A DNA stretch of 23,186 nucleotides from positions 1-23,186 of the IMG/VR virus record IMGVR_UViG_3300015360_000207; one strand, 5' to 3'. The notes under the pieces are model-generated. The model worked only from the letters and a program-made list of their open reading frames with translations. It made no database searches and was not told the origin of the DNA. Shown here one piece after another: positions 937 through 22,071 of this stretch; the first letter of the stretch is position 1; each line of letters begins with the position of its first letter. This stretch comes from a virus. A program made the position numbers and the translations under genes.

Positions 937-1296
937 ATGGGAAAAGCATTACAACAAATACAACAACTTAAAAAGGACAAGTTTGTTGAGGCATATAAAA
1001 CCACTAATGGAAATATTACTGATAGTGCACAAATAGCAGTAATTGATAGAACGACTTACTATCGCTGGTTAGAAGATGACAAATCATTTGCTATGCAAAT
1101 ACTTGATAGTGAAGCTGATTTGAATGACTCAATAAGACAGGTGCTAATTAGCAAAGCAGCAGAGGGGGACATGACAGCAGTAATATTTTACTTAAAGAAT
1201 AGACACCCTGACTTCAAGCAACAACCCACTACCCTTATTCAAAATAACTTTGGGGAGCATGCAAAGCAACAGATAGACAAATATACCAATGAGTAA
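937..1296 (+). CDS. terS: Probable small terminase subunit
   Basis: A 119-residue protein whose first 60 residues look like a helix-turn-helix domain: an aromatic helix (DKFVEAYKTTNG), then ITDSAQIAVIDRTTYYRWLE. This 'do not complete, act on next unit' domain is typical of phage small terminases, which recognise the packaging site and bring the large subunit to the DNA. The middle (SIRQVLISKAAEGDMTAVIFYLK) also matches what I know of this family, where an 'A-x-x-G-x-x-x-A-x-x-x-x-L-K' helix follows the HTH. Its position fits: the next gene is the large terminase and overlaps it by 8 bases, so the two are likely translationally coupled. The family call rests on pattern and context, not a search. 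Confidence 0.8.
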   Translation: MGKALQQIQQLKKDKFVEAYKTTNGNITDSAQIAVIDRTTYYRWLEDDKSFAMQILDSEADLNDSIRQVLISKAAEGDMTAVIFYLKNRHPDFKQQPTTLIQNNFGEHAKQQIDKYTNE

Positions 1297-3560
1297 GTTC
1301 AATTACGAGTTATTTATTAAAGATAACTTTAAAATTATTAACAAAGAGCAAAACGAAGTGCCTTTTGTTCTTAACACTATCCAGCACCAGTATTTATTCA
1401 ATGATATGAGTGGTCATGATGTAATACTTAAAGCACGTCAACAAGGGTTTTCATCAGTTATTCTTGCAATATTTACAGCTGACTTTATCTTAAAACAAAA
1501 CTCAGTTAATTATGTGGTTGCAGACATTGATGATAATGCAACGGACTTGTTGCAAAGAGTTAAGTATTTCATTAAAGCATACGAACAGGTCACAGGTGTT
1601 AAAGTGCCTTTGAAATATAATTCAAAGTCAGAGCTTGTTAATGAGGCAATGAATAGCACCTACAAGATTGGAACAGCTAAGAATGCAGAGTTTGGTAGGT
1701 CAAAGACTATAACAAATCTACATCTATCAGAATTTGCATTCTACCCTAATCCCAAGAATATTATAGCTGGAGCTGGACAAGCAGTAGTTGAGAATGGAAG
1801 GCTTATTATCGAAACAACTGCAAATGGATTCAATGAATTTAAAACTTATTGGGATGATTCGGTTATGGGTGAATCAACATCTAAGCCTTTATTTTATAAG
1901 GCATCTGACTTTTACTCTCAAGAGTTTTTAGAGCGAAAGAAAAAAGAACTTAAAGAGAGATTTCCCCAAGAGTATCCTGAGACAGCTGAGGAAGCATTCT
2001 TAACTTCAGGGGATTTGTATTTTGATGCAATAGCACTAAAGCATTACAACGATAACAGTATGGAATTTATGAGGGAGGGCCAAATCTATCTTTAGACAAT
2101 ATCGTAAAATTGAGAAGGGTGAGTTCTTTGTTATCTTTGCAGATACCTCAGCTGGAATGGGGGATTATTGTGCAGTACAATTTCTATCTAAGACTAGAAT
2201 TGATGTACCCCTCGTATACCATTCAAAAGGAATTGCAACAATAATGACAAATGATATATTTCCAGTAATTGAGAAGATACACGACATTACGGGAGTAAAA
2301 CCAGTAGTGGCCTATGAGCGCAATAATGGGGGCGTATTTGAGTTGGAGAGGTTATCTGCTATGAATAGACTCTCAAAGTATAAAATCTTTGAAATGCGTA
2401 ACTCAGGGCGCACAGAGAACCCTGAACCAACGAAGATCGGGTATGATACTAATACCGCAACTAGACCCAAGATGTTAACTGATCTTAAAGACGCAATAGA
2501 TAATAAACTCCTAGGGGTATATGACAAGATAACAATTACCGAGTTGTATTCTTTTGTTCTAGTACAAACCACATCAACCATTAAGGCACAAGCGGAGAAA
2601 GGTGCACATGACGATTTGTGTTTTGTAGCAGGAACTAAAGTATTAACAGATAAAGGTCAAATCCCCATTGAAAAGATTAAAATTGGAGATTTAGTAATGA
2701 CTAGAAAAGGATATCAACCAGTCATGGCAACAGGGAAGAGAAGCGCAAAAGTAATTTACAATAAATATCTAAATTTAATAGGAACTTCTAACCATCCGGT
2801 TATAACTATGAAGGGCAATATTCCATTGCAATCAGTCAAGGTCAATGATAACATATACATATGGAACGAGAAACTATCAACTATAGAGGAAAGAACTATC
2901 ATAGATACCCCCAGTCTAATAGACGACAACTGCGTGTCTACTTCTGGCGACACGATAAGTGGAAAGAGCCACCATTTTCCTTACATAGGCAGATCTTTAT
3001 TGATAACTTTGGAGAGATACCTGAGGGATATGTTATTCACCACAAAGACGAGAATCCACTTAATAATGAGCCCGAAAATTTGGAGACTATATCTAGACAA
3101 ATCCATATGCGGAATCACCTGCTTACTCCAAAGAGGAGGGCTATTTCTATTGCAAACGGTAATAGGCAAGCAGGCAGATTGGTTAAGCAACTTGCAGATT
3201 GGAGACAAAATAATCCTGAATTGGCAAGGAGTATCTATCAAGAGAATGGAAGAAATCAAAAAGATAAAGCAACTAAAGTGCTTGCAGATTGGAGACAAAA
3301 TAATCCTGAGAAAGCAAGACTTATGCAACAGGAGAATGGAAGAAGGAACGCGTCTAAGTATAGGTCAAAGCAAACGGGTCGTTTTCAATCTCAAAGTAGC
3401 TAATACCCCTGAATACTTTGCAAATAATATTCTTGTTCACAACTGTATGTCTTTGGCTGGCGCATGGCAGCTGTATCAATTATGCTCGCAACCATCACAA
3501 CCCGTACATAGCTCTGACTTGCCACAATTTAAAGCCCGTGATAGTGTAATTGGCATATGA
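1289..3560 (+). CDS. terL: Large terminase subunit, in two frames and split by an intein
   Basis: This is the motor and nuclease that packages phage DNA into the prohead. The first frame (1289-2095) holds the ATPase domain: a Walker A-like RQQGFSS near residues 50-56, a Walker B-like LHLSEF near 145, and ETTANG near 175-180. It ends at a TAG at 2093-2095. The second frame, entered at 2094, carries the RNase H-like nuclease: ADTSAGMGDY (first catalytic Asp near residue 285), AYERNNGG (Glu near 343), and HDDL near 440. Joining the frames by a +1 step gives the natural sequence GQIYL-RQYRKIEKGE. An ATG at 2157 lies inside the first nuclease motif and would lose its catalytic Asp, so it is not a real start. 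Removing the intein (2619-3443) leaves about 481 residues, a normal length. The frame change could be programmed, an error or a mutation. Confidence 0.9.
2071..2096 (+). other. Candidate +1 ribosomal frameshift site in the terminase
   Basis: The upstream frame reads TAT CTT TAG A at 2087-2096. A +1 slip of the Leu tRNA from CTT (2090-2092) to TTT (2091-2093) lets translation continue at AGA (2094). The release factor 2 gene is known to use TAT CTT TGA C for the same slip. GGAGG at 2074-2078 could act as an internal Shine-Dalgarno stimulator, but it is 11 bases from CTT, whereas the RF2 gene uses a spacing of 3. The downstream frame is closed by TGA at 2070-2072, so the shift must occur between 2073 and 2095. 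Confidence 0.6.
2861..3403 (+). CDS. HNH homing endonuclease nested out of frame in the intein
   Basis: A 180-residue protein read in the frame two bases on from the intein frame, wholly inside the intein. Residues 52-86 have the HNH layout: EIPEGYVIHHKDENPLNN, then PENLE and a closing His pair at 82 and 86. Residues 1-50 (NYHRYPQSNRR, SLHRQIFIDNFG) also fit phage HNH enzymes. Residues 111-130 and 141-160 form a 30-residue direct repeat beginning LADWRQNNPE, perhaps a DNA-binding module like the NUMOD-type repeats of such enzymes. A TAA at 2849-2851 closes this frame upstream, so ATG 2861 is the only normal start; no Shine-Dalgarno sequence precedes it. Such enzymes nick or cut intein-free alleles so that the element spreads by repair. 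Both frames stay open over 540 bases, which suggests selection on both. Confidence 0.82.
   Translation: MERETINYRGKNYHRYPQSNRRQLRVYFWRHDKWKEPPFSLHRQIFIDNFGEIPEGYVIHHKDENPLNNEPENLETISRQIHMRNHLLTPKRRAISIANGNRQAGRLVKQLADWRQNNPELARSIYQENGRNQKDKATKVLADWRQNNPEKARLMQQENGRRNASKYRSKQTGRFQSQSS
3191..3340 (+). repeat. 90-bp direct repeat inside the nested HNH gene
   Basis: Two units at about 3191-3250 and 3281-3340, offset by exactly 90 bases; their first 29 bases are identical and the rest is similar. In the HNH frame each gives LADWRQNNPE...ENGR; in the intein frame each gives LQIGDKII. The unit length is a multiple of three, so duplication kept both frames open. Confidence 0.8.
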
Positions 3561-3826: not shown

Positions 3827-3872
3827 CCAGTTACACACTGGCACAGCACGTCAAACTTTGGCGTGTTTTTTT
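3827..3872 (+). terminator. Two-hairpin leader with terminator-like end before the portal gene
   Basis: Hairpin 1 is CCAGT-TACAC-ACTGG (3827-3841). Hairpin 2 (3847-3865) has an 8-bp stem, CACGTCAA with TTTGGCGTG, one G-T pair and a small loop. Seven T residues at 3866-3872 touch the portal ATG at 3873. It has the form of an intrinsic terminator, yet it lies between the promoter and its gene. Confidence 0.75.
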
Positions 3873-5891
3873 ATGGCCAAGTACACCAAAAACCAAGACG
3901 AAGCAAAAATAGCAAAAGAAATTGATGAGCAATTCATCTTTGCTAAACGTTATCTTGATCCTATTCACCAGAAAATGAACCAACAGGAAGAACTGTACCG
4001 TTCATTCATTGATCAGAATAACTATCCCCATGGAGCAAGAGTCTTTGACCCACGTATATTTAGAATCATTGAAACCATAACTCCACGAATGGTAGCAACT
4101 GAGCCTATGGGATCATTCTATCCGGTTGAGGATGGGGATGAGATGACAACTCACATACTTAATGCACTTATCAAGTACGACTGGAGAAGAGCTGATATGT
4201 TCCAGAAGCAAGTAATGTTTATAAAGTCCATGCTTATATTTGGTACTGCATTTGGACGTATTCATTGGGACTTTAGAGAGAAGGAAAAGACACAGATGGT
4301 AGCAAAGAAAATCAATGGGAGATTGGTGTGGTCTCCTGAAAGCAAGAAAAAGATAAACGTAACAGAGTTTGATGGACCTAACTTTGAGGTACTAAATATT
4401 TATGATTGTTTTCCAGATCCAAATGCAACAAACATGGATAACATGAGGTGGTTCATCTACCGAATGTTCAAGACCATTGACGAGTTAAAAGAAGAAAACG
4501 ATGCAAGAGGAGCTGAGTACTGGAAGAACTTAGATGTACTTGAGCAGGCTATAAATGAAAAGAATAAAGATGATAGTCCTGGCAAGCAAGGGGGCAAACC
4601 AAATAATATTCAATACAGGGAACATAGAAGGATAATGTTGGGTACTGAGGATTTAGTAAAACAGGACAACTCAAATCCTGAAATAACAATCTTTGCTAGA
4701 TTTACTCGTGAAGGCTGGTGCTTCTACGCACCTGAGTATGCAGGTCTAGGTACATTCTCAGGCATTATAAGAGAAGTAGAGAATCCATACTTTCATGGTG
4801 AATTACCAATAGTTCATGCAGTTGATTATCCATATCCAGGAGAGTTATACGGTATGGGTGAGATTGAGCCAATTGACCGCATACAACGAGCTATAAACGC
4901 AGTACTTAATCAAAGACTAGATAATGTTCAGCTAACACTTAACACCATGTGGAAGGTTAAAAAAGACGCAGGCGTTGATCTTCATACACTAATATCTGCT
5001 CCAGGTAACATCATTACAACTGACAACATGGATGCTATTGAGGCAGTCCAGACCCCAGATGTAACGGGTGGTACATTCGTACAGACAATGAACTATCTAA
5101 CAAGCGCTATGCAGAATGGGTCGGGTATTACAGACTACACACAAGGAATTAAAGAGGATTCAAATGTTACTAACAACACAGCTACAGGCATAAGGCTTAT
5201 ACAAAATGAGGCTAATGCACAATTCAAACTCAAGATACAGCTCTACTCACATATGGTTGTAATGAGAATTGCAAACCAATGGAAGGACTTGAGGATTCAA
5301 TACACAACTGAAGCACAGAGGTTAAGAATTATGGGAGGGGATCAGGTCAACTACTTACGGGATAACACAAAGTTATCACAAACAGATATGGAGGGCAATC
5401 AAATTGTTCCAGGGGATATGGAAGCACAATCAAAGCTAGAGATTAAATCAGACTCTTTTGCATTCCTAAACTTACTACCAGAAGACCTACAGCCCTCAAT
5501 TGTCGGGGACTACGACTTTGTGCCGATTCTATCAAGCGAACAGCTTAACGATCCTATTATGATGCAGCAAAACTTTATGACAGTGCTTAATCAAATTAAT
5601 ACACCACCATTCAGTCAAGGACTAGCACAACAGCAAAAGATGCTCAACTTTGAGCAGATTGCAAAGGACGCAATAGAAAAGCTTGATATGGGATTAGAGG
5701 CAAAAACATATGTTATTGATATACCTCAAATGCCTCAAATGGGACAACCTGAACAGATGAATGAGGATAACGTAACCGCAACACTAGGAAACGCACAAGA
5801 GCAATTCGGTCAGACTCAAGATCAAATGATGCAACAGCTACAACCTGAACAGATGCAGGAAGGGGGGGAAGTTGGACAACAAGCTTACTAA
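3873..5891 (+). CDS. Portal protein
   Basis: A 672-residue protein with the look of a podovirus/siphovirus portal, the ring at one head vertex through which DNA enters and leaves. Supporting stretches are the N-terminal helical region (KMNQQEELYRSFIDQ), PRIFRIIETITPRMVATEP, the helix RADMFQKQVMFIKSMLIFGTAF and the hallmark VLNIYDCFPDPNATNMD near residues 170-190. A stem-like region (GELYGMGEIEPIDRIQRAIN) follows. The last 70 residues are rich in Gln and Met. ATG 3873 follows a T-run and gives MAKYTKNQDE; a TTG 15 bases earlier lies inside the terminator hairpin and is unlikely. Its place after the terminase and before scaffold and capsid agrees. The family identity is firm; the exact subfamily is not. 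Confidence 0.92.
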   Translation: MAKYTKNQDEAKIAKEIDEQFIFAKRYLDPIHQKMNQQEELYRSFIDQNNYPHGARVFDPRIFRIIETITPRMVATEPMGSFYPVEDGDEMTTHILNALIKYDWRRADMFQKQVMFIKSMLIFGTAFGRIHWDFREKEKTQMVAKKINGRLVWSPESKKKINVTEFDGPNFEVLNIYDCFPDPNATNMDNMRWFIYRMFKTIDELKEENDARGAEYWKNLDVLEQAINEKNKDDSPGKQGGKPNNIQYREHRRIMLGTEDLVKQDNSNPEITIFARFTREGWCFYAPEYAGLGTFSGIIREVENPYFHGELPIVHAVDYPYPGELYGMGEIEPIDRIQRAINAVLNQRLDNVQLTLNTMWKVKKDAGVDLHTLISAPGNIITTDNMDAIEAVQTPDVTGGTFVQTMNYLTSAMQNGSGITDYTQGIKEDSNVTNNTATGIRLIQNEANAQFKLKIQLYSHMVVMRIANQWKDLRIQYTTEAQRLRIMGGDQVNYLRDNTKLSQTDMEGNQIVPGDMEAQSKLEIKSDSFAFLNLLPEDLQPSIVGDYDFVPILSSEQLNDPIMMQQNFMTVLNQINTPPFSQGLAQQQKMLNFEQIAKDAIEKLDMGLEAKTYVIDIPQMPQMGQPEQMNEDNVTATLGNAQEQFGQTQDQMMQQLQPEQMQEGGEVGQQAY

Positions 5892-7277: not shown

Positions 7278-8270
7278 ATGGCCTTAGATACAGCAAAAAC
7301 AATAACAAGCGGAACAGCTAATGCTGCTATTAAGAATCGTTATTATGACGAGCTATTTCTTAAAAGAACAGAAGCAATGCTTGTTCACAAACAACTTGGA
7401 CAAAAGAACGTCAAAGTCCCTAGTGGAGCTGGTGGATACGGTACTGGTGTTGTCTACTGGACACGCTGGACAAATCTACCTTTAGTTACAGCAGGACAAG
7501 GAGAAGGTGTTCCAACGACTGCAGTACAACTTACTGCAACAAACGTTACCGGAACAACTGCTCAATTTGACGCAGCCGTTTCAATCTCTGACCTTATGGC
7601 TTACACGTCATTTGGAGATGTGATGAAAAACGCAATGGAACTTCTTGCATACAATGCAGGACTTTCTATTGACACTGTAGTTGCTACTGAAGTTTCTACT
7701 TCAGGAACAATGCAGGCAGCAACTGGACTTGGTTCTAACTGGACAGCTATTCCTGCAACAGGAATACTATCCATTTCTGAAATCAAAAGAGCAGTAAGAA
7801 CGCTTAACAGAAACAACGCTTTTAAACAAAGTGATGGTTTCTACACAGCAACTGTTCATCCAGATGCTTTGTTTGACTTGATGACCGACACTACAACTGG
7901 AGGTTGGATTGACGCTAACAAATACGACTCTGCTACTTCTGACAAACTCTTAAACGGGGAAGTTGGACGTTTGCATGGTGTACGTTTCTTAGATTCTACC
8001 AACACTTACATAAAGGGTTCATCTTGTGCAGCAAACTCAGCGGTTCTTGCATCTTCTACCATTTACGTTACTAACGTATTTGGACGAGAAGCATTCGGAG
8101 TTACTGACCTACAGAACCTTCAAACATTCGTAAAAGAATTGGGTTCTGGCGGAACAGGAGATCCTACGAATAAGATCGCAACAGCAGGTTGGAAAACAAC
8201 CTTCGGAGTATCCGAGCTTAACAGCGCATTCAACATTAATATCAGACATACAGTTTCTACAACTGCTTGA
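7278..8270 (+). CDS. Major capsid protein, N4-gp56-like family
   Basis: A 330-residue protein that should form the icosahedral shell. It matches what I know of the N4-gp56 capsid family: AMLVHKQLGQKNVKVPSGAG near the N-terminus, YWTRWTNLPLVTAGQGEGVP, the conserved VSISDLMAYTSFGDVMKNAM, a long central helix (NAGLSIDTVVATEV), TVHPDALFDLMTD, and the family-like end GWKTTFGVSELNSAFNINIR near residues 300-320. A strong ribosome site (GGAGGTGA at 7261-7268) precedes the ATG. It is separated from the scaffold gene by 33 bases and followed by a normal terminator. The family has the HK97 fold; that is general knowledge, not visible here. Confidence 0.9.
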   Translation: MALDTAKTITSGTANAAIKNRYYDELFLKRTEAMLVHKQLGQKNVKVPSGAGGYGTGVVYWTRWTNLPLVTAGQGEGVPTTAVQLTATNVTGTTAQFDAAVSISDLMAYTSFGDVMKNAMELLAYNAGLSIDTVVATEVSTSGTMQAATGLGSNWTAIPATGILSISEIKRAVRTLNRNNAFKQSDGFYTATVHPDALFDLMTDTTTGGWIDANKYDSATSDKLLNGEVGRLHGVRFLDSTNTYIKGSSCAANSAVLASSTIYVTNVFGREAFGVTDLQNLQTFVKELGSGGTGDPTNKIATAGWKTTFGVSELNSAFNINIRHTVSTTA

Positions 8271-8343: not shown

Positions 8344-8371
8344 TTGACATTATTATAGCTAGTGGTATAAT
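8344..8371 (+). promoter_or_regulatory. Late promoter module 2
   Basis: TTGACA (8344-8349), a 16-base spacer and a perfect TATAAT (8366-8371) with an upstream TGG extended -10. It is the best consensus match of the five copies and drives the operon from 8435 to 13354. Confidence 0.88.
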
Positions 8372-8383
8372 TATGAGGTTGAT

Positions 8384-8434
8384 CCCCCCAAAAGGGGCAG
8401 ACGGTAAACCTTAATTGGTGATCCGTCTTTTTTT
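8384..8434 (+). terminator. Two-hairpin leader with terminator-like end before the co-chaperonin gene
   Basis: Hairpin 1 is a C-run, AAAA, GGGG (8384-8397). Hairpin 2 pairs AGACGG (8399-8404) with CCGTCT (8423-8428), with a small inner ACC/GGT pairing. Seven T residues (8428-8434) touch the ATG at 8435. A separate terminator already closes the upstream operon, so this one is not needed for that. Confidence 0.78.
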
Positions 8435-9037
8435 ATGGCTTCATCATATAAACCAACCTGGGCTAGATACGAGAAGGATGCAAATGACCCAAATGATGCT
8501 AACAAAGCATTAAAAGCTTCAGATATGTATCTCACAGAACGAAAGAAGGAGCTAAAGACTTCAGCAAAGGCTCGCAACTGGGAGAAGGATCGCAAAGAGT
8601 CAATCTACAAACAAAAACCTCAATATACAAAAGAAAGAATTAAAGAACAGCAGGATAAAATTACAAAGCCCCTCAAAAGCATTAAAGACCTTGGCTCATT
8701 TGATAAGAGTCTAAAGCCAATGCCAGGATTTATCATTGTTGAGGTAGAGACACCTGAAGTTACAACAGAGTCGGGTATTATCCTAGCTGAAACAACAAAA
8801 GAGCCAAATACGGGCACTGTAGTTGAGATTTCGACCCCTCTAACATTTGTTTCAAAAGATTCTATCCAAACTATCCCATGTCCAGTAGAAATTGGGGACA
8901 GGATACTTTTCAAACGCATGGCAGGACAAATGGGAAGTCCTGGAGCAGAGTTATCAATTAATGGAAATGACTACCGCCTTATGAGATGGAACATTAGTCC
9001 GATAGAGTCAGATATTTTAGCTGTCTTCTATGAATGA
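8435..9037 (+). CDS. GroES-like co-chaperonin with a charged N-terminal extension
   Basis: A 200-residue protein. Residues 94-200 match the GroES/Cpn10 layout: LKPMPGFIIVEVETPE (strand like the GroES N-terminus), TTESGIILAETTKEPNTGTVVEI (mobile loop region followed by the conserved G-x-V), VEIGDRILFKRMAG (like 'VGDxVxF') and the end IESDILAVFYE (like 'ESDILAIVE'). Phage co-chaperonins such as T4 gp31 cap the host GroEL so that it can fold the capsid protein; this gene is the first after the capsid gene, which fits. Residues 1-93 are rich in Lys, Arg, Asp and Glu, probably helical, and not part of any GroES I know; they may bind the capsid protein or another partner. The gene starts an operon of overlapping genes. 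The domain call is strong; the role is inference. Confidence 0.82.
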   Translation: MASSYKPTWARYEKDANDPNDANKALKASDMYLTERKKELKTSAKARNWEKDRKESIYKQKPQYTKERIKEQQDKITKPLKSIKDLGSFDKSLKPMPGFIIVEVETPEVTTESGIILAETTKEPNTGTVVEISTPLTFVSKDSIQTIPCPVEIGDRILFKRMAGQMGSPGAELSINGNDYRLMRWNISPIESDILAVFYE

Positions 9038-9284
9038 GGTTATTTTATTTAAGGGTTTGTTTGATAACGATTTGAACTCACCCTTATTTGATGACCTACC
9101 CTGTAAGAGATGCGGAATTGTACCTGAAACAAAACAATATATGGCAAAAACAATTAAGGGAGTATTTGTAAAGAGAACCGATAGATTATCACGAATTGAC
9201 TGTGATGCGTCAGTGGGTACAGAACCACCAATGTATGAAACTTACCACAATCAATGCTGGTATGAGGAGGTATTAAATGATTAG
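9030..9284 (+). CDS. Small Cys-rich protein of unknown function
   Basis: An 84-residue protein overlapping the co-chaperonin gene by eight bases and the glycosyltransferase gene by eight bases. DLPCKRCGIVPET near residues 23-35 gives a Cys-x-x-Cys knuckle; further Cys residues are in RIDCDAS and NQCWYEE, so a four-Cys zinc site is possible. The last 15 residues are acidic and aromatic. I do not recognise a family. The coupling means it is made together with the glycan genes. Confidence 0.65.
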   Translation: MNEVILFKGLFDNDLNSPLFDDLPCKRCGIVPETKQYMAKTIKGVFVKRTDRLSRIDCDASVGTEPPMYETYHNQCWYEEVLND

Positions 9285-10686
9285 TGTAATTACATCTACA
9301 TATAACAGACCAGAGAGGCTAAAGAAGGCAATTGAGAGTGTACTGGCTCAAACCTATCAGGACTTTGAACTAATTGTTGTTGATGATCATTCAGATTTTG
9401 ACACAGAACTTTTTGAGGATTCAAGAATCACATACATATATCGTGATAAAAACCATGGGGATGACACTAAACCTAAAAATGAAGGCATATTAGCCTCAAA
9501 AGGAGAGTACATTGCTTTTCTTGATGATGATTGTGAATTTAGACCAGACCATCTTCAAGCATTACATAATGCTATAAAAGACGACACTAAGCTTGACATG
9601 GTGTATGGAGACAGATGGATCATTGATGAGAATAAGAACATACAGGATCAGATAGGTGTTTATTACGACTATAACCCTTCACTGCTTCTTCAAAAAAATT
9701 ACATTGATACTTCAGATGTTCTGATAAGGCGTGAGGCTTTATTTAGAGTTGGAGGATTTGATGAGAGATATAAGAAGTACGTTGACTGGAATCTATTCTT
9801 GAGAATGAGTAAGGCTGGTATGGTATTCAGACGTGTACCACTAATACTTACTGACTATCACCTACATAGTGATATGAAATCAGTAAGGGTAAAAACTAAG
9901 AAGGACAGTAACACTGCATTTGTACCAGAATGGGATCCATATGATTGTGAGATAGAGCTACCGTATCTAGGAGAAAAGGAAGAGCCAGCTGTTGCAATAT
10001 ATAGCATGACCTACAACAGACTTACCTACACGAAGCAGTCATTTGTATCACTATGGGAGAAAGCAGACTATCCATTCGAACACTTCATATTTGACCAGGG
10101 GTCTACAGATGGTACACCAGAGTGGTTAAGGGAGTATGAAGCACTACACAAGGGCAAGGTGCACATCATCTATTCAGAAGACAATAAGGGTATTTCAATA
10201 GCTTCAAATAGACTTGTTGATGAGATTGTAAAAGACAACAAATTTAGAATCATTATGAAGTCAGACAATGATGCACTTTATACCAGTAAGGGGTTCTTAA
10301 AAAAGATGGTAGAAATTTGGAAAGTGAATCATTGTCTTGCCCTCTCCTGTTATGTTAATGGCCTACGGGATAATCCAGGGGGCGCACAAAGAATTGGGTA
10401 CGGAAAGATTAAAGGACAATTAATAGGAATGACAAAACACTTAGGCGGTATCTGTCATTTCGTTGATGCCCTTGCATATAAGTACTTCAGATGGGATACA
10501 GAGGACTTTTTACATTCAAAACAAGATGTTGAACTTTCACAGTATTTAATTATGAACAATTTACAAATGGGATACCTTGAGAACTTCTACTTAGACCACA
10601 TTAATGGGACATCGGGGCAAGAAAAAGACTATCCTGAGTATTTTGAATTGAGAAAGAAAGAAAAGACCATATCATATGAATCCTAA
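9277..10686 (+). CDS. Double-domain family 2 glycosyltransferase
   Basis: A 469-residue protein built from two GT-A type glycosyltransferase domains, which transfer a sugar from a nucleotide-sugar to an acceptor. Domain 1 (about 1-200) has VITSTYNRPERLKKAIESVL, LIVVDDHSD and LDDDCEF with the Asp triad that binds metal and donor (residues 83-85), plus GGFDERY. Domain 2 (about 236-440) has IYSMTYNRLTYTKQS, FDQGSTDGTPEWL, DNKGISIASNRLVD and KSDND (DxD-like, residues 329-332). No membrane segment is visible, so it is probably cytoplasmic. AGGAGG at 9264-9269 supports the start. It is the first glycan gene in the cassette. Substrate is unknown. Confidence 0.88.
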   Translation: MISVITSTYNRPERLKKAIESVLAQTYQDFELIVVDDHSDFDTELFEDSRITYIYRDKNHGDDTKPKNEGILASKGEYIAFLDDDCEFRPDHLQALHNAIKDDTKLDMVYGDRWIIDENKNIQDQIGVYYDYNPSLLLQKNYIDTSDVLIRREALFRVGGFDERYKKYVDWNLFLRMSKAGMVFRRVPLILTDYHLHSDMKSVRVKTKKDSNTAFVPEWDPYDCEIELPYLGEKEEPAVAIYSMTYNRLTYTKQSFVSLWEKADYPFEHFIFDQGSTDGTPEWLREYEALHKGKVHIIYSEDNKGISIASNRLVDEIVKDNKFRIIMKSDNDALYTSKGFLKKMVEIWKVNHCLALSCYVNGLRDNPGGAQRIGYGKIKGQLIGMTKHLGGICHFVDALAYKYFRWDTEDFLHSKQDVELSQYLIMNNLQMGYLENFYLDHINGTSGQEKDYPEYFELRKKEKTISYES

Positions 10687-11113
10687 GATTTTGCATATAG
10701 GCTGTGGGCCTTTTAAATATCCTGAATACATCAACACTGATTTGGAGATGGATGTAACAAAACACTGGGATTATGAGGATAGCACCATTGATGCTGTGGT
10801 TTCACAACACGTATTTCAGGAGATGTATTGGAAAGAGTTAATTTATGCCTTTCAAGAAGCGTATAGGGTACTAAAAAAAGGTGGATATATGAGATTTGGT
10901 GTACCAACAGTAAAGCAAAATATGTCACTACAAAGAATGTTGTCATGGGGCAATAAAAACCTACTCACTTTTGACATATTAAGCACTGTTCTTTTAACAG
11001 TTGGATTTAAAACCTGTGAGCAGGTTGACTATCAATTAACTAAGTCAGGCATGAGATTAACGCTTATAGATAATCGACCAGGTGAAACAACATTTATCGA
11101 AGTACAAAAATGA
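10676..11113 (+). CDS. Short SAM-dependent methyltransferase-like protein
   Basis: A 145-residue protein, short for a class I methyltransferase. PKILHIGCGPFKYPEYINTD gives a motif I-like Gly-Cys-Gly and the acidic strand end that usually contacts the ribose of SAM; AVVSQHVFQEM and EAYRVLKKGGYMRFGVPT match motifs IV-V of the 'Methyltransf_11' type. This small form with HIGCG and GG-x-x-R-x-x-x-P is common beside sugar-processing genes. It overlaps the glycosyltransferase by 11 bases. It may methylate a sugar or act only as a fold with lost activity. Enzyme class fairly sure, substrate unknown. Confidence 0.75.
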   Translation: MNPKILHIGCGPFKYPEYINTDLEMDVTKHWDYEDSTIDAVVSQHVFQEMYWKELIYAFQEAYRVLKKGGYMRFGVPTVKQNMSLQRMLSWGNKNLLTFDILSTVLLTVGFKTCEQVDYQLTKSGMRLTLIDNRPGETTFIEVQK

Positions 11114-11760
11114 AAGCAACAGGTAATACAAATATAAACTCTAAACGCTACTGGAATACTATTTATGGTGACAAAGCCTCTCGCGCTACCTATGCAGCTC
11201 AGGGAACTGACAAAGGACATATAGAAGTAAAAGAGCATCAACACGCCTGCACAGTTGAGACAGCTAGATTTACCACAGCACTAACATATATTAAGGAAAA
11301 TGATAAGGTTCTTGATATTGGCTGTGGTGTAGGAGTATTTACAAATCTTGTAAAGACTACATTTCCTGATTCAGATGTATCAGGCGTTGACATATCCAAT
11401 ACAGCAATTGAAGCTAATAAGGAGGAGAATGACACAATCTTTTACCAACAAGGATATATTGGAAGGCTTGATTTTTTACCAGAGAATAGCTATGACGTTA
11501 TATTTTGTGGTGAAACGATAGAACACCTAGACGAGCCGGTTGAGTTATTCAAAGAAGCCTACAAATTGTTGAAGAAAGGCGGAAAGCTAATCATCACAAC
11601 ACCCAAAGAAGAAAACATTAAATCAGAAGAGCACCTGTGGTATTTCAAACAAGAAGATGTAGAAGAATTATTCATGAGAGCTGAATATAAGGAGATAAAA
11701 TTTGAGTATCTAAAGGACATGGAACACTTACTCATTATATTTGCAGTTGGTATAAAATGA
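11110..11760 (+). CDS. SAM-dependent methyltransferase
   Basis: A 216-residue class I methyltransferase. KVLDIGCGVGVFTNLVK near 67-82 is motif I (SAM binding), SGVDISNTAIEAN near 91-103 is motif II, and DVIFCGETIEHLDEPVELF with AYKLLKKGGKLIITTPKEE cover motifs IV-VI. The N-terminal 'YWNTIYGDKAS' opening is typical of methyltransferases in surface-sugar clusters. ATGA overlap with both neighbouring genes, so coupled translation. It probably O-methylates the sugar made by the neighbouring transferases, which is inference from the context. Confidence 0.85.
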   Translation: MKATGNTNINSKRYWNTIYGDKASRATYAAQGTDKGHIEVKEHQHACTVETARFTTALTYIKENDKVLDIGCGVGVFTNLVKTTFPDSDVSGVDISNTAIEANKEENDTIFYQQGYIGRLDFLPENSYDVIFCGETIEHLDEPVELFKEAYKLLKKGGKLIITTPKEENIKSEEHLWYFKQEDVEELFMRAEYKEIKFEYLKDMEHLLIIFAVGIK

Positions 11761-12377
11761 AAAAAGTTGCCCTAAGTTTAGATGATTTCAGCGTACTTAA
11801 TAATCGCATGGATTTATTGCTAGATATTAAAGAGCATTATCCTGATTTTAAAGTTTCACTTTTTACAATTCCATTTGATGCTAAGTTTGAATCAAAACCA
11901 GAAGCAAGGTTATTTCGTGATAAATCATTAGCTCTTATAAAAGAAAATCTTGACTGGATGCAGATAATCCCTCATGGACTCTCACATATGCCAAAAGAGA
12001 TGGAGAATTGTGACTACTATACATTCCGAGATTTAGTTATGCCCTCAATTGATGAAGCTTTTATAAAGGACGGGCTTCCATATGAAAAAGGATTCAAAGC
12101 TCCTTACTGGCTATGGAATAAGAAAGTAATTAGAGCATTGGATGAATCAGGATGGTGGGGAGCTACTGACAGGAATCAACCGGACATGCTAAAGACAAAG
12201 AAGAACTACACATACACCCATTCACTTGAAGAACCGTTCTGGGAGTCAACTGAGGATACAATCCTACTTCATGGTCACATTGATGGAGTTAGTAAGAATG
12301 ATTTGGAACTTAATTTCTTAAATATATTTAAATTACGCAATGTAGAGTTTCACTTTATAACAGACTATATCAAATGA
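11757..12377 (+). CDS. NodB-like polysaccharide deacetylase
   Basis: A 206-residue protein with the motifs of carbohydrate esterase family 4: LSLDDFS near residues 7-12 (catalytic Asp and metal Asp), HGLSH at 73-77 (metal-binding His-x-x-x-His), GFKAPYWLWNKKVI near 112-124, and ILLHGHID near 169-176 (the catalytic His region). These enzymes remove N-acetyl groups from amino-sugars, using a metal ion. No signal peptide is visible, so it acts inside the cell on a nucleotide-sugar, lipid or assembling glycan rather than on the wall. ATGA overlaps on both sides tie it to the methyltransferase and the next transferase. All key residues appear present. Confidence 0.82.
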   Translation: MKKVALSLDDFSVLNNRMDLLLDIKEHYPDFKVSLFTIPFDAKFESKPEARLFRDKSLALIKENLDWMQIIPHGLSHMPKEMENCDYYTFRDLVMPSIDEAFIKDGLPYEKGFKAPYWLWNKKVIRALDESGWWGATDRNQPDMLKTKKNYTYTHSLEEPFWESTEDTILLHGHIDGVSKNDLELNFLNIFKLRNVEFHFITDYIK

Positions 12378-13354
12378 ATATTGTTGCATATGGTAATCAG
12401 ACAGGATCAAAGTCATGGAGGCTTGAGCATCCCTTCAAATATTTAAGAAAGAAAGGAATTGATGCATGGGTATCTGATGAGGGGATAACAGATAAGGCTA
12501 TGGAATGGGCTGATATTATTGTCATGAACTCCGTTATCCACAAAGAGGGACTTGCTAAGGTATATGAATATCAACAGACAAAGGGTAAAAAGATTGTAAT
12601 TGATGTTGATGACTGGTTTGATCTTAACCCTGACTCTCCATTTATCAAGGAACATGAATTAAGCGATGCAAAATCTACAATCCTTCGCATGATAGAAGTA
12701 GCAGACCTCGTTACTTGTTCAACTACTTACCTTGAAAAGCTATTGTTAAAAGTTAATCCAAAAGTAAAGGTACTCAAAAACTATATGGATATGGAGTTCT
12801 GGGATACCGAAAAAGAAGTTAATACCTCAGACAAAATTCGCATTGGATGGGCGGGGTCACTTACCCACCTTGATGACCTAAAGATGGTCATAAGTCCCCT
12901 CAAAAGGATCATGGATGAGTACCCTGCTGAGGTTGTATTCATTGGTGATACGCGTATACAAGATGAATTTAAAGGATATCCTGTAACTACTATGTTAGGT
13001 GTCCCATTTGATGCATGGCCCTTGCGCCTTTCCGGCATGAGGCTTGATATTGGAATTGCGCCTCTTAAAGACACACCATTTAACAGAGCAAAATCTAACA
13101 TTAAATGGCAGGAGTATTCTGTTGCAAAAATTCCAGGGATATATTCTCCAACCGTATACTTTCACCAAGATTTTGAGCCTAAGTATGGGATTATAGCAGT
13201 TGACGAAGATCACTGGTATAGAGCCTTAAAGCACATGATTGACTTTCCTCAAAGGCGGGAGGAGATAAGAATTAACTCATATAACTATGTTACCAAGTAC
13301 TATTCACTTGAAAAGCATATAAAAGAGTGGATGGAAGCGTATCAGTCAATTTGA
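12374..13354 (+). CDS. GT-B type glycosyltransferase (GT4-like)
   Basis: A 326-residue glycosyltransferase, somewhat short for GT4 enzymes. The N-terminal half (VAYGNQTGSKSWRLEHPFKYL, IVIDVDDWFDLNP, ADLVTCSTTYLEKLLL) fits the acceptor half; the second half starts at KIRIGWAGSLTHLDDLKM, like the 'R-x-G-x-x-G' donor-half strand, and continues with VVFIGDT, DIGIAPLKDTPFNRAKSNIKWQEYSVAKIP, the region near the catalytic Glu (here in KWQEYS). No membrane segment. It ends the operon, and its TGA is inside the TTGACA of promoter module 3. Together with the double GT2 protein it gives at least three transferase domains for one glycan. Confidence 0.85.
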   Translation: MNIVAYGNQTGSKSWRLEHPFKYLRKKGIDAWVSDEGITDKAMEWADIIVMNSVIHKEGLAKVYEYQQTKGKKIVIDVDDWFDLNPDSPFIKEHELSDAKSTILRMIEVADLVTCSTTYLEKLLLKVNPKVKVLKNYMDMEFWDTEKEVNTSDKIRIGWAGSLTHLDDLKMVISPLKRIMDEYPAEVVFIGDTRIQDEFKGYPVTTMLGVPFDAWPLRLSGMRLDIGIAPLKDTPFNRAKSNIKWQEYSVAKIPGIYSPTVYFHQDFEPKYGIIAVDEDHWYRALKHMIDFPQRREEIRINSYNYVTKYYSLEKHIKEWMEAYQSI

Positions 13355-13380
13355 CATAAAGTTCAATTACGAGTTATAAG
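13351..13380 (+). promoter_or_regulatory. Late promoter module 3
   Basis: TTGACA (13351-13356) in the shared ATTTGACATAAA block, an 18-base spacer and TATAAG (13375-13380). The stop codon of the glycosyltransferase is the TGA inside TTGACA. The spacer holds a 19-base exact match to the start of the terminase gene at 1295-1313. Confidence 0.8.
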
Positions 13381-13387
13381 AATGTAT

Positions 13388-13427
13388 CCTGACAAACAGG
13401 CGGCACACCTAATTGGTGTGTTTTTTT
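13388..13427 (+). terminator. Two-hairpin leader with terminator-like end before the connector gene
   Basis: Hairpin 1 is CCTG-acaaa-CAGG (13388-13400). Hairpin 2 is CACACC-TAATT-GGTGTG (13404-13420), followed by seven T residues (13421-13427) that touch the ATG at 13428. Confidence 0.75.
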
Positions 13428-14108
13428 ATGGCTACGCTAACAACATACTTAGTATCCGACATTTTACAAATCATTTCAGATTTACGAGGTGAGTCATCGG
13501 TTAATACTAACTCTGACCGTATACGTGCCATTTCACGTGCAGAACAGGATGTTGCACGTAGACAATTCTTCAGAAAGCATTTAGTAAAGGATCAATCACT
13601 AGCTTCTGGTGATGGCACTACCTCTACATTCACTATTGGTTCTGCAACGTATCCAATGAGGGACAAGGGACTTACCGACTTATTTGTAGGTGGTACAACA
13701 GAGGATAAGAGAAGATCTGTTGTTGACTATGAACAATTCAGAAACCTCTATAACACTAATAACGCAGAACGCATTGCATATGAATACTACGATCAGGCCA
13801 ATGATTTATGGAAAGTAAAAATCAATCCAATTCCAGCAAGCGGGGATGCAATAACTGCTTCATGGTACTACATTCCTCCAACAAGAACTTTGACAACTGA
13901 TGCTGTTGTTTGTGGTGACCCTTACTTAATTGCGTATCTTGCAGTTGCAGATGTTTATCATGGTGAGGATGAAATAGACTTCGAGGATAGTGCACGTCAG
14001 GAAGCTGAAAATAGATATGGCGAGATGGTGGGACGTGAGAACACTCCAGCAGTAAATCAATCATACACAATGGCAAAACAAGTTAATAAAGGTTACGGCT
14101 CGTATTAA
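13428..14108 (+). CDS. Probable head-tail connector (adaptor) protein
   Basis: A 226-residue protein starting MATLTTYLVSDILQIISDLRG, with a helical opening (SDRIRAISRAEQDVARR), a central beta-rich region (WKVKINPIPASGDAITASWYYIPP) and a C-terminal helix with acidic residues (HGEDEIDFEDSARQEAENRYGEM). This order is typical of adaptors that bind under the portal. It lies directly before the nozzle-like protein, which is where adaptors usually lie. A GTG/TTG start 15 bases upstream would lie in the terminator hairpin, so ATG 13428 is chosen. Identity rests mainly on context and composition. Confidence 0.7.
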   Translation: MATLTTYLVSDILQIISDLRGESSVNTNSDRIRAISRAEQDVARRQFFRKHLVKDQSLASGDGTTSTFTIGSATYPMRDKGLTDLFVGGTTEDKRRSVVDYEQFRNLYNTNNAERIAYEYYDQANDLWKVKINPIPASGDAITASWYYIPPTRTLTTDAVVCGDPYLIAYLAVADVYHGEDEIDFEDSARQEAENRYGEMVGRENTPAVNQSYTMAKQVNKGYGSY

Positions 14109-19239: not shown

Positions 19240-20769
19240 ATGGCAGCAGGACAAATACTCAGTTTACCGCAAGCAGCAACGGGACTCGCACCAGTCTCAT
19301 CGGCTACTGCGTGGAATTATGGCACAGCAGTTACCGCCTCCGCCTCTCTTGCTGTTGGTATAAAAATTATTGGATTACAATTCCAGGTAACTAATATTCC
19401 CACAGTAGATGCTACTCAGGAAATACTTTTTGATATTACTGTTGGTGGTACTACAAAAGTTCAAATTCCATACACTCAAAGGTCAGATACAGCAGTTGGT
19501 TTCTATCCCTCAGTACCGTACTCAGGAGGCACGGTATTTCTTCCTGAACCTTACAGTGTTCCTGGTGGCTCCGCAGTGGCTGTACAAGTAACAGATAGTC
19601 TTGCCTCAGCCAAAACCTATAACGGTGTCAAGATTTTATATCAGGAAAATACACCTCCTACAGTAGCCCTAAACACCCCAAATGATGTAGCTACAGGTGT
19701 AAGCACTACCCCAGACCTACTTTTTACGGGAACAGACGCTGATAGTGATGAGATTGAATATAACGTACAGGTAGATACGGTTAATACTTTTGATAGTCAA
19801 GTTGGTGCAGGTAATGTTTATGTTATGACATGGGGTGCTGGTGGCGGTGCTCAAGGTAGTAATAATAGTACCCTGACTCAGGGTCGTGGAGGCGGCGGCG
19901 GTGCGTTTGCTGGCAAGACTGTTTCTGCTAGTAATGCAACTGGTTATTCTATTGCTGTTGGTGCTGGTGGTGCTGGTGGTGCTGCTGGAGACCCTCCAGG
20001 TGGAGGGGTTAATGGAGGCGACTCTACATTTGCCACAACTACCGTAGTTGCAAAAGGCGGAAATTCTGGAGGGAACTCAGGGACAGGTGGTTTGGCTTCG
20101 GCTTCAACAGGAGATGATAAGTATAATGGAGGAACGGGTGCGGATGGTAGTAGTATCCAATCTGGTGGGGGTGGAGGAGGAAGTGGAGGATCTACGGCTG
20201 CAGGGTCTAATGGCTCAGGTGCGACTGGTGGTGCAGGTGGTACTCCTGATGGGGGTGCTGGTGGTAATTCTTCTGGTGCTACTGGTCAAGTTGGTACTGT
20301 CCCAGGAGGTGGTGGCGGTGCTGGAGATTGGACACACTCAGGTAGTGCAGGGGCTGACGGAAAAGTTGTCATACGAGCATTATTGGGAGTTGTTAAAAGT
20401 GCAACAGGAGGAACTAAGACCTCAGATGGTACTTATGATTATTGGACCTTTACTGCTGGTGGCACATGGACTCCTACAATTGGGACCCCGTTACTCTCCA
20501 AACTCTCCGTTACACCAGACGCTACTTTTACAGGTACGGGCGACCCTCATCCCTGGCCATCAGGAAATCAGGTAACGTATACAGTCCAAGCAGGGAATAT
20601 TCTTACCGCTTCTACAGTTTATTACTGGAGAGTAAGAGGAACAGACCCCTTAGGAAGTAATATTTATGGAGCGTGGGCAACAACGAGGAGTTTTACGACA
20701 GGAGCTGGAGTTATTCCTAATAAAATCTATAAATATCTACAGGCAATAAATAGAAGTAATACTTATTAA
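19240..20769 (+). CDS. Tail-fibre-like protein with a glycine-rich insertion
   Basis: A 509-residue protein in three parts. Residues 1-135 are a paralogue of the previous protein. Residues 137-186 (TPPTVALNTPNDVATGVSTT, DGD-like TDADSD, YNVQVDTVNTFDS) and about 416-490 (TPLLSKLSV, YTVQAGNILTASTVYYWRVRG) look like the two halves of one Fn3/cadherin-like domain. Between them, about residues 187-415, lies a glycine-rich region (runs such as GRGGGGGAFAG and PGGGGGAGDWTH) that starts VYVMTWGAGGGAQG, like glycine-rich domains of phage fibres. So the glycine-rich part seems inserted in an older domain. Such regions often bind receptors or vary between phages. Very low Leu and Lys and high Gly change the local base composition. 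Confidence 0.75.
   Translation: MAAGQILSLPQAATGLAPVSSATAWNYGTAVTASASLAVGIKIIGLQFQVTNIPTVDATQEILFDITVGGTTKVQIPYTQRSDTAVGFYPSVPYSGGTVFLPEPYSVPGGSAVAVQVTDSLASAKTYNGVKILYQENTPPTVALNTPNDVATGVSTTPDLLFTGTDADSDEIEYNVQVDTVNTFDSQVGAGNVYVMTWGAGGGAQGSNNSTLTQGRGGGGGAFAGKTVSASNATGYSIAVGAGGAGGAAGDPPGGGVNGGDSTFATTTVVAKGGNSGGNSGTGGLASASTGDDKYNGGTGADGSSIQSGGGGGGSGGSTAAGSNGSGATGGAGGTPDGGAGGNSSGATGQVGTVPGGGGGAGDWTHSGSAGADGKVVIRALLGVVKSATGGTKTSDGTYDYWTFTAGGTWTPTIGTPLLSKLSVTPDATFTGTGDPHPWPSGNQVTYTVQAGNILTASTVYYWRVRGTDPLGSNIYGAWATTRSFTTGAGVIPNKIYKYLQAINRSNTY
19798..20484 (+). repeat. Low-complexity glycine-rich coding segment
   Basis: GGT/GGA-rich stretch coding residues 187-415 of the fibre-like protein. Its G+C is visibly higher than its surroundings, and its lack of T-starting codons leaves a second + frame open at 20048-20575 by composition alone. 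Confidence 0.7.
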
Positions 20770-20772
20770 AAT

Positions 20773-22071
20773 ATGAGACTAGGAAGATCGCAACCATTTA
20801 AACCCCTTATTCGGTTATTCCGTAATGTTTCTGGCAATACAATCACCACACAAACAATTACAGGGCTTGCACGTATTGCAAAGGATACACTGCAAACTAT
20901 TACGGGTAAGGCAAGAATACAAACTTCTGTTACTCAAACAATCACAGGCTTATCACGCATAACAAAAACAGTTGTTCAGACTATAACTGGACTGGCAAGA
21001 ATAACAGCTATAACCACTAGAACTATAACAGGTAAGGGTGCAATCCTGCTTACTGTTACACGCACTGTACAGGGTGTAGCGAGGATTACAAAAACAGCAA
21101 CTCAAACCATACAAGGACTTTCACGCATAACAAAGACTGTACCACAGACAATTACTGGACTATCACGCATAACAGCAACGGCTCTACAAACCATAACAGG
21201 TAAAGCTCGCATAACGGCTACCACTCTTCAAACAATAACTGGTAAAGCTGCAATAGTTAATACAATACTTCAAACTATTACTGGTAAGGCTAGGATCACT
21301 GCTATAACTCTTCAAACTATCACAGGTAAGGCTAGGATAACTGCTATAACTTTACGAACAATTCAGGGGCTTGCTAGGGTTACTAAAACTGCAACACAGA
21401 CTGTTCAGGGATTAGCACGTATTACAGCAATAACTCTGCAAACCATAACTGGTAAAGCTAGGATAACAGTTACAACACTTCAGACCATTACTGGTAAGGG
21501 TAGAATAACCAAAACTGTAATCCAAATCATCCAAGGGTTAGCAAGAATAGGATTAGTAACTCTTCAAACTATAACTGGTAAGGCAAGAATTACAGCATCA
21601 ACGCTACAAACAATTACAGGGTTAGCAAGGATAACTAAGACTGTTACCCAGACAATCCAGGGGCTATCACGCATAACTAAGACTGTAACTCAAACCATAA
21701 CAGGGTTAGCAAGGATTACTAAAACTGTTACCCAGACTATTCAAGGACTTGGTAGGATAACGGCTAGTACTACAAAAACCATCACGGGTGTAGCTAGATT
21801 AACTGTCATTACCGTTCAAACTATAGCCGGACTTTCAAGAATACAGATTGTGACTACTAAAACTATAACAGGGTTAGCAAAAATTGTATCGGCAGCAGAT
21901 ACAGCGACCCAAACTATACTGGGACTTGCTAAAATTGCCACCACCACAAGTAGAACAATTCAGGGAAAAGCCATGATTCTCTCAACCATTTCAAGGCCAT
22001 TTCCAAAAATTATTATTGCTGATGGAAAGACGTATCTACAGCTTAGTGGAATACTTTATACAAAGATATAA
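20773..22071 (+). CDS. Repeat protein with 27 copies of a 14-residue unit
   Basis: A 432-residue protein. Residues 27-407 are 27 tandem units, all 14 residues except one of 17, with consensus Q-T-I-[TQ]-G-[LK]-[AS]-R-I-T-x-T-x-x. The N-terminal 26 residues (MRLGRSQPFKPLIRLFRNVS) are basic; the last 25 (RPFPKIIIADGKTYLQLSG) look like a small beta cap. Each unit has one or two Lys/Arg and alternates Ile/Val with Thr, the form of a beta-solenoid or a repeated beta-hairpin. No family is certain to me, though similar repeats occur in metagenomic phage fibre genes. It comes after the glycine-rich fibre protein, so it is probably a fibre shaft or adhesin. Copies differ at the DNA level, so this is old expansion with some recent duplication (units 11 and 12 are identical as protein). 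Confidence 0.78.
   Translation: MRLGRSQPFKPLIRLFRNVSGNTITTQTITGLARIAKDTLQTITGKARIQTSVTQTITGLSRITKTVVQTITGLARITAITTRTITGKGAILLTVTRTVQGVARITKTATQTIQGLSRITKTVPQTITGLSRITATALQTITGKARITATTLQTITGKAAIVNTILQTITGKARITAITLQTITGKARITAITLRTIQGLARVTKTATQTVQGLARITAITLQTITGKARITVTTLQTITGKGRITKTVIQIIQGLARIGLVTLQTITGKARITASTLQTITGLARITKTVTQTIQGLSRITKTVTQTITGLARITKTVTQTIQGLGRITASTTKTITGVARLTVITVQTIAGLSRIQIVTTKTITGLAKIVSAADTATQTILGLAKIATTTSRTIQGKAMILSTISRPFPKIIIADGKTYLQLSGILYTKI
20851..21993 (+). repeat. 42-bp tandem coding repeat (27 units)
   Basis: In-frame 42-base units coding the 14-residue repeat. Two unit types seem to alternate in places, QTITGK-ARI and QTI[TQ]G-L[AS]RITKT. One unit near the end is 9 bases longer. 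Confidence 0.85.

Follow-up and report, generated by a model that had tools for sequence, protein, structure and literature searches.

A capsid-linked glycan cassette conserved in a lineage of uncultured phages and its probable role in virion-protein glycosylation

Analysis of the 23,186-base linear virus record IMGVR_UViG_3300015360_000207 (hereafter the window, meaning the whole stretch) found a cassette of five overlapping glycan genes at 9277–13354, inside the block of virion genes. We consider it somewhat probable (about 0.57) that this cassette is a virion-protein glycosylation locus that has become fixed in a phage lineage. The reading is favoured because the enzymes are soluble, no export machinery accompanies them, the association with the capsid gene is constant, and mycobacteriophages provide a precedent. 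Sugar genes of phages are mostly classed with auxiliary metabolism or with modification of the host surface, and virion glycosylation encoded by phages is itself an established phenomenon. The lineage described here keeps a glycan pathway of several steps among its virion genes as steadily as it keeps the portal gene, so that virion glycosylation becomes a lineage trait open to testing.

The terminase, portal, scaffold-like, capsid, co-chaperonin-like, adaptor and tail genes of the window all share one strand, and the cassette lies on the same (+) strand, as do the features of its transcription unit given below. In order, it encodes a double GT-A (GT2) glycosyltransferase (GT; this protein is called GT2x2; 9277–10686), a short S-adenosylmethionine (SAM) methyltransferase of 145 aa (10676–11113; PF08241, Methyltransf_11, 1e-8), a second SAM methyltransferase of 216 aa (11110–11760; PF13847, Methyltransf_31/23, 4e-20), which is the commonest gene of the cassette middle, a putative de-N-acetylase with the CE4/NodB fold (11757–12377), and a GT4-type glycosyltransferase with the GT-B fold (12374–13354). 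All five genes named in the first-pass annotation, an earlier reading of this DNA by a model, were thus present and overlapping. That annotation had also set them between capsid/co-chaperonin and connector genes, which agrees with what we found: the constant upstream neighbour is the major capsid protein gene (7278–8270; phrog_1357, E 1e-42; Phage_capsid_4, 8e-7), followed in the window by a GroES-like (Cpn10) gene, and the downstream neighbour is an SU10-type head-tail adaptor gene (13428–14108; PF24175, 4e-9). As the cassette is conserved in many contigs, it is not a chance arrangement.

The GT2x2 protein scored 146.9 bits against the Glycos_transf_2 profile (PF00535, 7e-43; cut-off 23.3 bits) in two stretches, and its closest solved structure is a two-domain chondroitin synthase (6e-36). 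Each half carries one pair of acidic residues (D83/D85 and D330/D332), invariant in 17 homologues; the profile match and the acidic metal/nucleotide motif in both halves place the protein in GT2 (GT-A). The last protein of the cassette, which matched a glycosyltransferase PHROG (phrog_7162, 4e-38), gave an AlphaFold2 model with a pLDDT (predicted local distance difference test) of 91.5, in which two Rossmann-like domains match GT4 structures; a structure search returned the GT4-type enzymes GlgM, MshA, BshA and PimA at E 8e-14 to 3e-11. No membrane segment rose above the threshold of a 19-residue hydropathy scan in the cassette proteins, as had been claimed earlier, and the families, the folds and the absent membrane segments together support the view of a cytoplasmic glycan-building cassette.

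The putative de-N-acetylase matched no Pfam, NCBIfam or significant PHROG family; because these collections are blind to it, its family was recognised only through a structure model. The AlphaFold2 model (pLDDT 94) best matched ArnD (E 3e-8) and a chitin deacetylase (Z 15.0, 2.9 Å over 174 residues), with numerous CE4 entries above Z 12, and it has the deformed-barrel fold of CE4. Residues D10, H73, H77 and H174 were invariant in 16 homologues; their assignment to the metal-binding Asp-His-His and the motif-5 His follows the order of the motifs and involved no superposition. The first Asp of motif 1, the catalytic base, is D9 in the window and His in several homologues. The protein is thus likely, though not certain, to be active as a de-N-acetylase. 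A methylated, deacetylated amino sugar, which the first-pass annotation had proposed as the product, is plausible but unproven, since the methyltransferase is missing in some relatives and CE4 motif 1 varies. The model also resembles PDB 8qpg, a capsid turret protein of Haloferax tailed virus 1 (Z 13.0, 9% identity); this turret has a CE4-like fold, and therefore such a fold can itself be a virion component.

Linkage to the capsid gene was assessed in an unbiased set of 24 contigs recruited by the capsid protein alone. GT2x2 came next after the capsid in all 17 of those that extend at least 1.3 kb past the capsid gene, and GT2x2, NodB (the CE4 gene) and GT-B were all present in 9/9 (about 7 distinct) that reach 5.5 kb or further, with none lacking them. 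A wider set of 26 distinct loci was partly recruited with NodB and is hence biased; 24 of them carry these three genes. The two exceptions both have remote capsids: MW202801 carries at the same place a remote counterpart of the block, with its own annotated NodB-like and GT genes, and Bacillus phage Pascal has no cassette. Pairwise divergence was correlated with that of the capsid for GT2x2 (r 0.69), NodB (0.75) and GT-B (0.70), with values of 0.61 for the portal and 0.83 for the scaffold; relatedness among contigs inflates these correlations, which are taken only as no sign of independent exchange. GT2x2, NodB and GT-B are the fixed genes of the cassette and remain intact across contigs at mean identities of about 46–55%. 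On these sequence comparisons, the cassette appears to travel vertically with the virion block, and not as a stray moron. The question posed earlier, whether it always accompanies the same capsid genes, can be answered with yes within the clade.

The ends of the cassette are constant, and the middle genes are exchanged among relatives. The 216-aa methyltransferase is common but replaceable, being found in 16 of the 26 distinct loci, and the 145-aa methyltransferase was seen at this place in the window phage and the near-identical L002 only. Middle genes in other relatives include a second GT2, a SIS-domain isomerase, a GHMP kinase and an RGP-type (mutase-like) protein (L018), a DegT aminotransferase (L026 and L032, with a very similar gene in L033) and an NAD-dependent epimerase (L138). 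In several relatives the tail genes include a further glycan cassette, with a UDP-sugar dehydrogenase (UDP, uridine diphosphate), and the second NodB of L019 is 53% identical to the CE4 protein of the window. The exchangeable middle suggests serotype-like variation among the virus particles.

In the mechanism that we propose, host nucleotide sugars, joined in some relatives by sugars from the variable middle genes, would feed the GTs. These enzymes would act in the cytoplasm during late expression and build a short glycan straight onto a virion protein that is being made alongside them. The acceptor may be the capsid protein or the product of a nearby gene, for example the GroES-like or the adaptor protein. 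The CE4 protein would take an N-acyl group off an amino sugar, with the methyltransferases capping the glycan; the second, tail-region cassette of some relatives would likewise serve tail or fibre proteins. The resulting glycan coat probably shields the particle or tunes adsorption. The C-terminal Ser/Thr tail of the capsid protein, SSTA-like in most members, was considered as the acceptor and rejected as diagnostic: two cassette-bearing members end otherwise, and capsids without a cassette likewise end in Ser/Thr-containing tails. A more far-reaching version is put forward only tentatively, and as a whole we regard it as rather doubtful: a lineage-wide, obligate "capsid glycan locus" of modular design, with fixed transferase ends around an exchangeable core of sugar-chemistry genes as in O-antigen loci, another copy serving the tail, serotype-like diversification, a cationic amino-sugar coat made by the CE4 enzyme, and probably a patescibacterial host.

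Three targets had been named in the first-pass annotation, namely the phage's own virion, a host glycan and the phage DNA. The first is the best supported, by the fixed place with the capsid, by co-divergence and by the lack of a flippase or polymerase, and the other two are less likely. Alteration of a host surface glycan, for superinfection exclusion or adhesion, is the usual interpretation of phage sugar genes and has been proposed for the O-antigen nucleotide-sugar genes of groundwater Patescibacteriota phages (PMC12911398); the cassette proteins also show a family resemblance to TuaG, WcaA and EpsD, an integrase-like gene seen by eye in one relative makes lysogeny possible, and host flippases could be borrowed. 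Nevertheless we regard this explanation as unlikely. In six near-complete relatives there was no membrane-anchored GT, flippase (Wzx), polymerase (Wzy) or GtrA-like protein, nor any protein with at least four membrane segments, and the window cassette lacks the membrane flippase or membrane GT of Gtr-type seroconversion and O-antigen cassettes. The cassette moreover keeps an invariant place in the late virion block rather than in a lysogeny region, and is strictly retained and co-diverges with the capsid. The phage's own DNA, with hypermodified bases, is a considerably less probable target. DNA-glycosylating phage GTs are well known (discussed in PMC12619734), and all the cassette proteins are cytoplasmic; against this, no homologue of thymidylate synthase or deoxycytidine monophosphate hydroxymethylase was found in the records of 12 relatives, some possibly fragments, with control genomes positive, although other routes to such bases exist. 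Several GTs, a CE4 enzyme, aminotransferases and swappable nucleotide-sugar genes point instead to an oligosaccharide, and the cassette sits in the virion block.

The product might also be a free or particle-bound soluble compound, a small diffusible or internal one such as an osmoprotectant, a capsid cement or a decoy, and not a covalent modification of the virion. The presence of the small-molecule transferases BshA and MshA among the top structural relatives of GT-B is in keeping with this, but two chondroitin-synthase-like GT-A domains and the constant capsid linkage better fit a polymer or protein glycan; with nothing specific in its favour, such a product seems about as improbable as DNA modification. 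Least probable of all is a relic linkage, in which the enzymes are passed on as a block but now do little in the virion: the variation in CE4 motif 1 and the gain and loss of middle genes could be taken that way, but three genes stay intact despite their divergence, their catalytic residues are invariant, and no exception occurs within the clade. The GTs are soluble, phage-encoded and linked to virion genes, as virion-protein glycosylation by a phage implies, and we prefer that reading. Several points nevertheless weigh against it. Related capsids in Pagevirus lack the cassette, as do the surroundings of the remote capsids L143 and L144 in two prophage-like regions of Patescibacteria. The capsid linkage is circumstantial, and adjacency could reflect only the timing of expression. 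No acceptor site was found in the capsid, the conserved Ser/Thr tail being unspecific to cassette-bearing phages, and the His that replaces the first CE4-site Asp in several homologues leaves the CE4 activity uncertain.

Comparison with known systems puts the cassette closest to phage virion glycosylation. According to PMC12619734, which cites Freeman 2023, Mycobacterium phages bear glycans at the C-termini of capsid and tail-tube subunits. That system shares with the window phage-encoded cytoplasmic GTs and a capsid or tail protein as the proposed target. It differs in that the window has a longer pathway, with a CE4 enzyme, a methyltransferase and swappable sugar-nucleotide genes, and in that the window cassette, whose acceptor is only putative, is fixed behind the capsid in a whole uncultured lineage. 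A similar layout is that of Podoviridae sp. ctQWt234 (MW202801) from the Manatee Spring metagenome, which has the capsid gene, a leader with a hairpin, a run of seven T (T7) and the ATG, a GT/methyltransferase/nodB-like/GT block and then tail genes. Its proteins are remote (capsid 29% and GT-B 25% identity), it has radical-SAM-type and PhyH genes of its own, and the deposited annotation leaves the block uninterpreted.

O-antigen and capsule loci likewise have constant ends, exchangeable central sugar genes and several GTs; however, the window cassette lies in a virion operon, and a flippase, a polymerase and a lipid-carrier initiating transferase were not seen. The combination of a GT2, a CE4 de-N-acetylase and a SAM methyltransferase follows the logic of NodC, NodB and NodS in Nod-factor synthesis, but the similarity is at superfamily level only (NodC 3e-4; NodS, PF05401, 4e-7), there is no acyltransferase, and a GT-B is added. 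Deacetylases in viral metagenomes have been interpreted as polysaccharide degradation genes (PMC6460857); the arrangement of the CE4 gene with GTs in the window argues for synthesis and not degradation. The whole cassette gave no blastn match to 50,697 deposited phage records, the CE4 protein had no relative by tblastn in the 50,697 deposited phage genomes, and GT2x2 had only partial matches under 35%. No published description of such an arrangement was found in the literature searched, which does not prove its absence. These data suggest that the cassette extends known phage virion glycosylation with a lineage-fixed, modular arrangement.

Patescibacteria are the host group that we favour by a little. 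The closest bacterial relative of the CE4 protein (52% identical) belongs to a glycan cassette that closes a 71.8-kb chromosomal contig of Candidatus Yanofskybacteria, with housekeeping genes ahead of it. The last 14 kb of this contig, up to 71768 (L129; MGKO01000007.1), hold GT, methyltransferase and sugar genes in a row, together with the NodB relative and a fibre-like gene; this run is probably part of an integrated phage, and no tRNA attachment site was found for the element. A capsid profile search over 379 sampled Patescibacteria genomes matched two contigs. One has, in the same order, the capsid, GT2x2, methyltransferase, epimerase, NodB, GT-B, adaptor-like and tail-like genes, and the other has the capsid, a short open reading frame (ORF), another ORF and GT2x2 before the contig ends. 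Both are short, phage-only pieces of bins and may be mis-binned; their capsids are only distantly related to the window's. In a Neomarinimicrobiota control the sole capsid match was a weak one, and a capsid profile search of a set of genome contigs gave no match. If the host is indeed patescibacterial, the particle coat would offer a first concrete clue to the attachment of phages to these episymbionts, which are poorly cultured.

The cassette appears to belong to a putative single transcription unit at 8344–13427, as judged from signals in the sequence. A sigma-70-like promoter (TTGACA-16-TATAAT with TG; 8344–8371) is the sole 12/12 consensus match within the window, and it is followed by a hairpin and T7 (8400–8434) that abut the ATG of the GroES-like gene. 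This first gene of the unit (8435–9037; PF00166, 2e-11 over residues 93–197) is followed by an ORF of 84 aa (9030–9284), which matched no Pfam, NCBIfam or significant PHROG family and overlaps each neighbour by 8 bases; consecutive genes from the GroES-like gene to GT-B overlap by 8, 8, 11, 4, 4 and 4 bases. At the downstream border lie a promoter-like TTGACA-18-TATAAG read by eye (13351–13380) and a hairpin (13402–13420) with T7 abutting the adaptor ATG (13402–13427). A single promoter for the cassette, as first annotated, is thus in line with the consensus match and the terminal hairpin-T7, but that support is consensus only, and the unit begins upstream of the cassette, with the GroES-like gene and the 84-aa ORF. 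Promoter-like sites in the window overall were no more numerous than in shuffled sequence, and consensus matches say nothing of use.

The GroES-like protein has an N-terminal extension of about 90 residues. In one relative (L004, 7527–7961), the protein between the capsid and the cassette looks by eye like this extension alone, and the Cpn10 domain was not matched there by tblastn. This suggests that the extension could be a virion-related module in its own right.

Terminator-like hairpins with T6–9 directly abut the ATG of operon-first genes in this group (the portal, the GroES-like gene, the gene after the cassette and some tail genes). They occur in the window at 3845–3873, 8400–8435 and 13402–13428 (3 observed versus 0.04 expected) and in relatives including L009, L016, L019, L030, L072 and L006. 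In the clade, a hairpin was present at 29 of 30 distinct T6+-ATG starts of ORFs longer than 60 aa, all on the coding strand. These leaders have no space for a Shine-Dalgarno site, and are possibly controlled by antitermination or serve as U-tract translation leaders.

An Rfam search gave no match. The gene for the terminase large subunit (1289–3560) contains an intein-like insert (Hint_2, 2e-10), about 0.83 kb long and lying at about 2620–3448. An HNH endonuclease ORF (2861–3403; HNH_3, 1.6e-14) is nested in this insert in another frame, and L007, which is otherwise 99.5% identical, has an empty site. In the region of about 2060–2100 the terminase frame shifts, at about 2090, from the ORF at 1289–2095 to the frame of 2157–3560. 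Since the same sequence occurs in the separate assembly L007, a programmed frameshift or a split gene is possible. Towards the right end, a Gly-rich tail protein (19240–20769) adjoins a 432-aa protein (20773–22071) that consists almost entirely of a 14-residue repeat (xxQTITGLARITK-like), with a period of 42 in the DNA.

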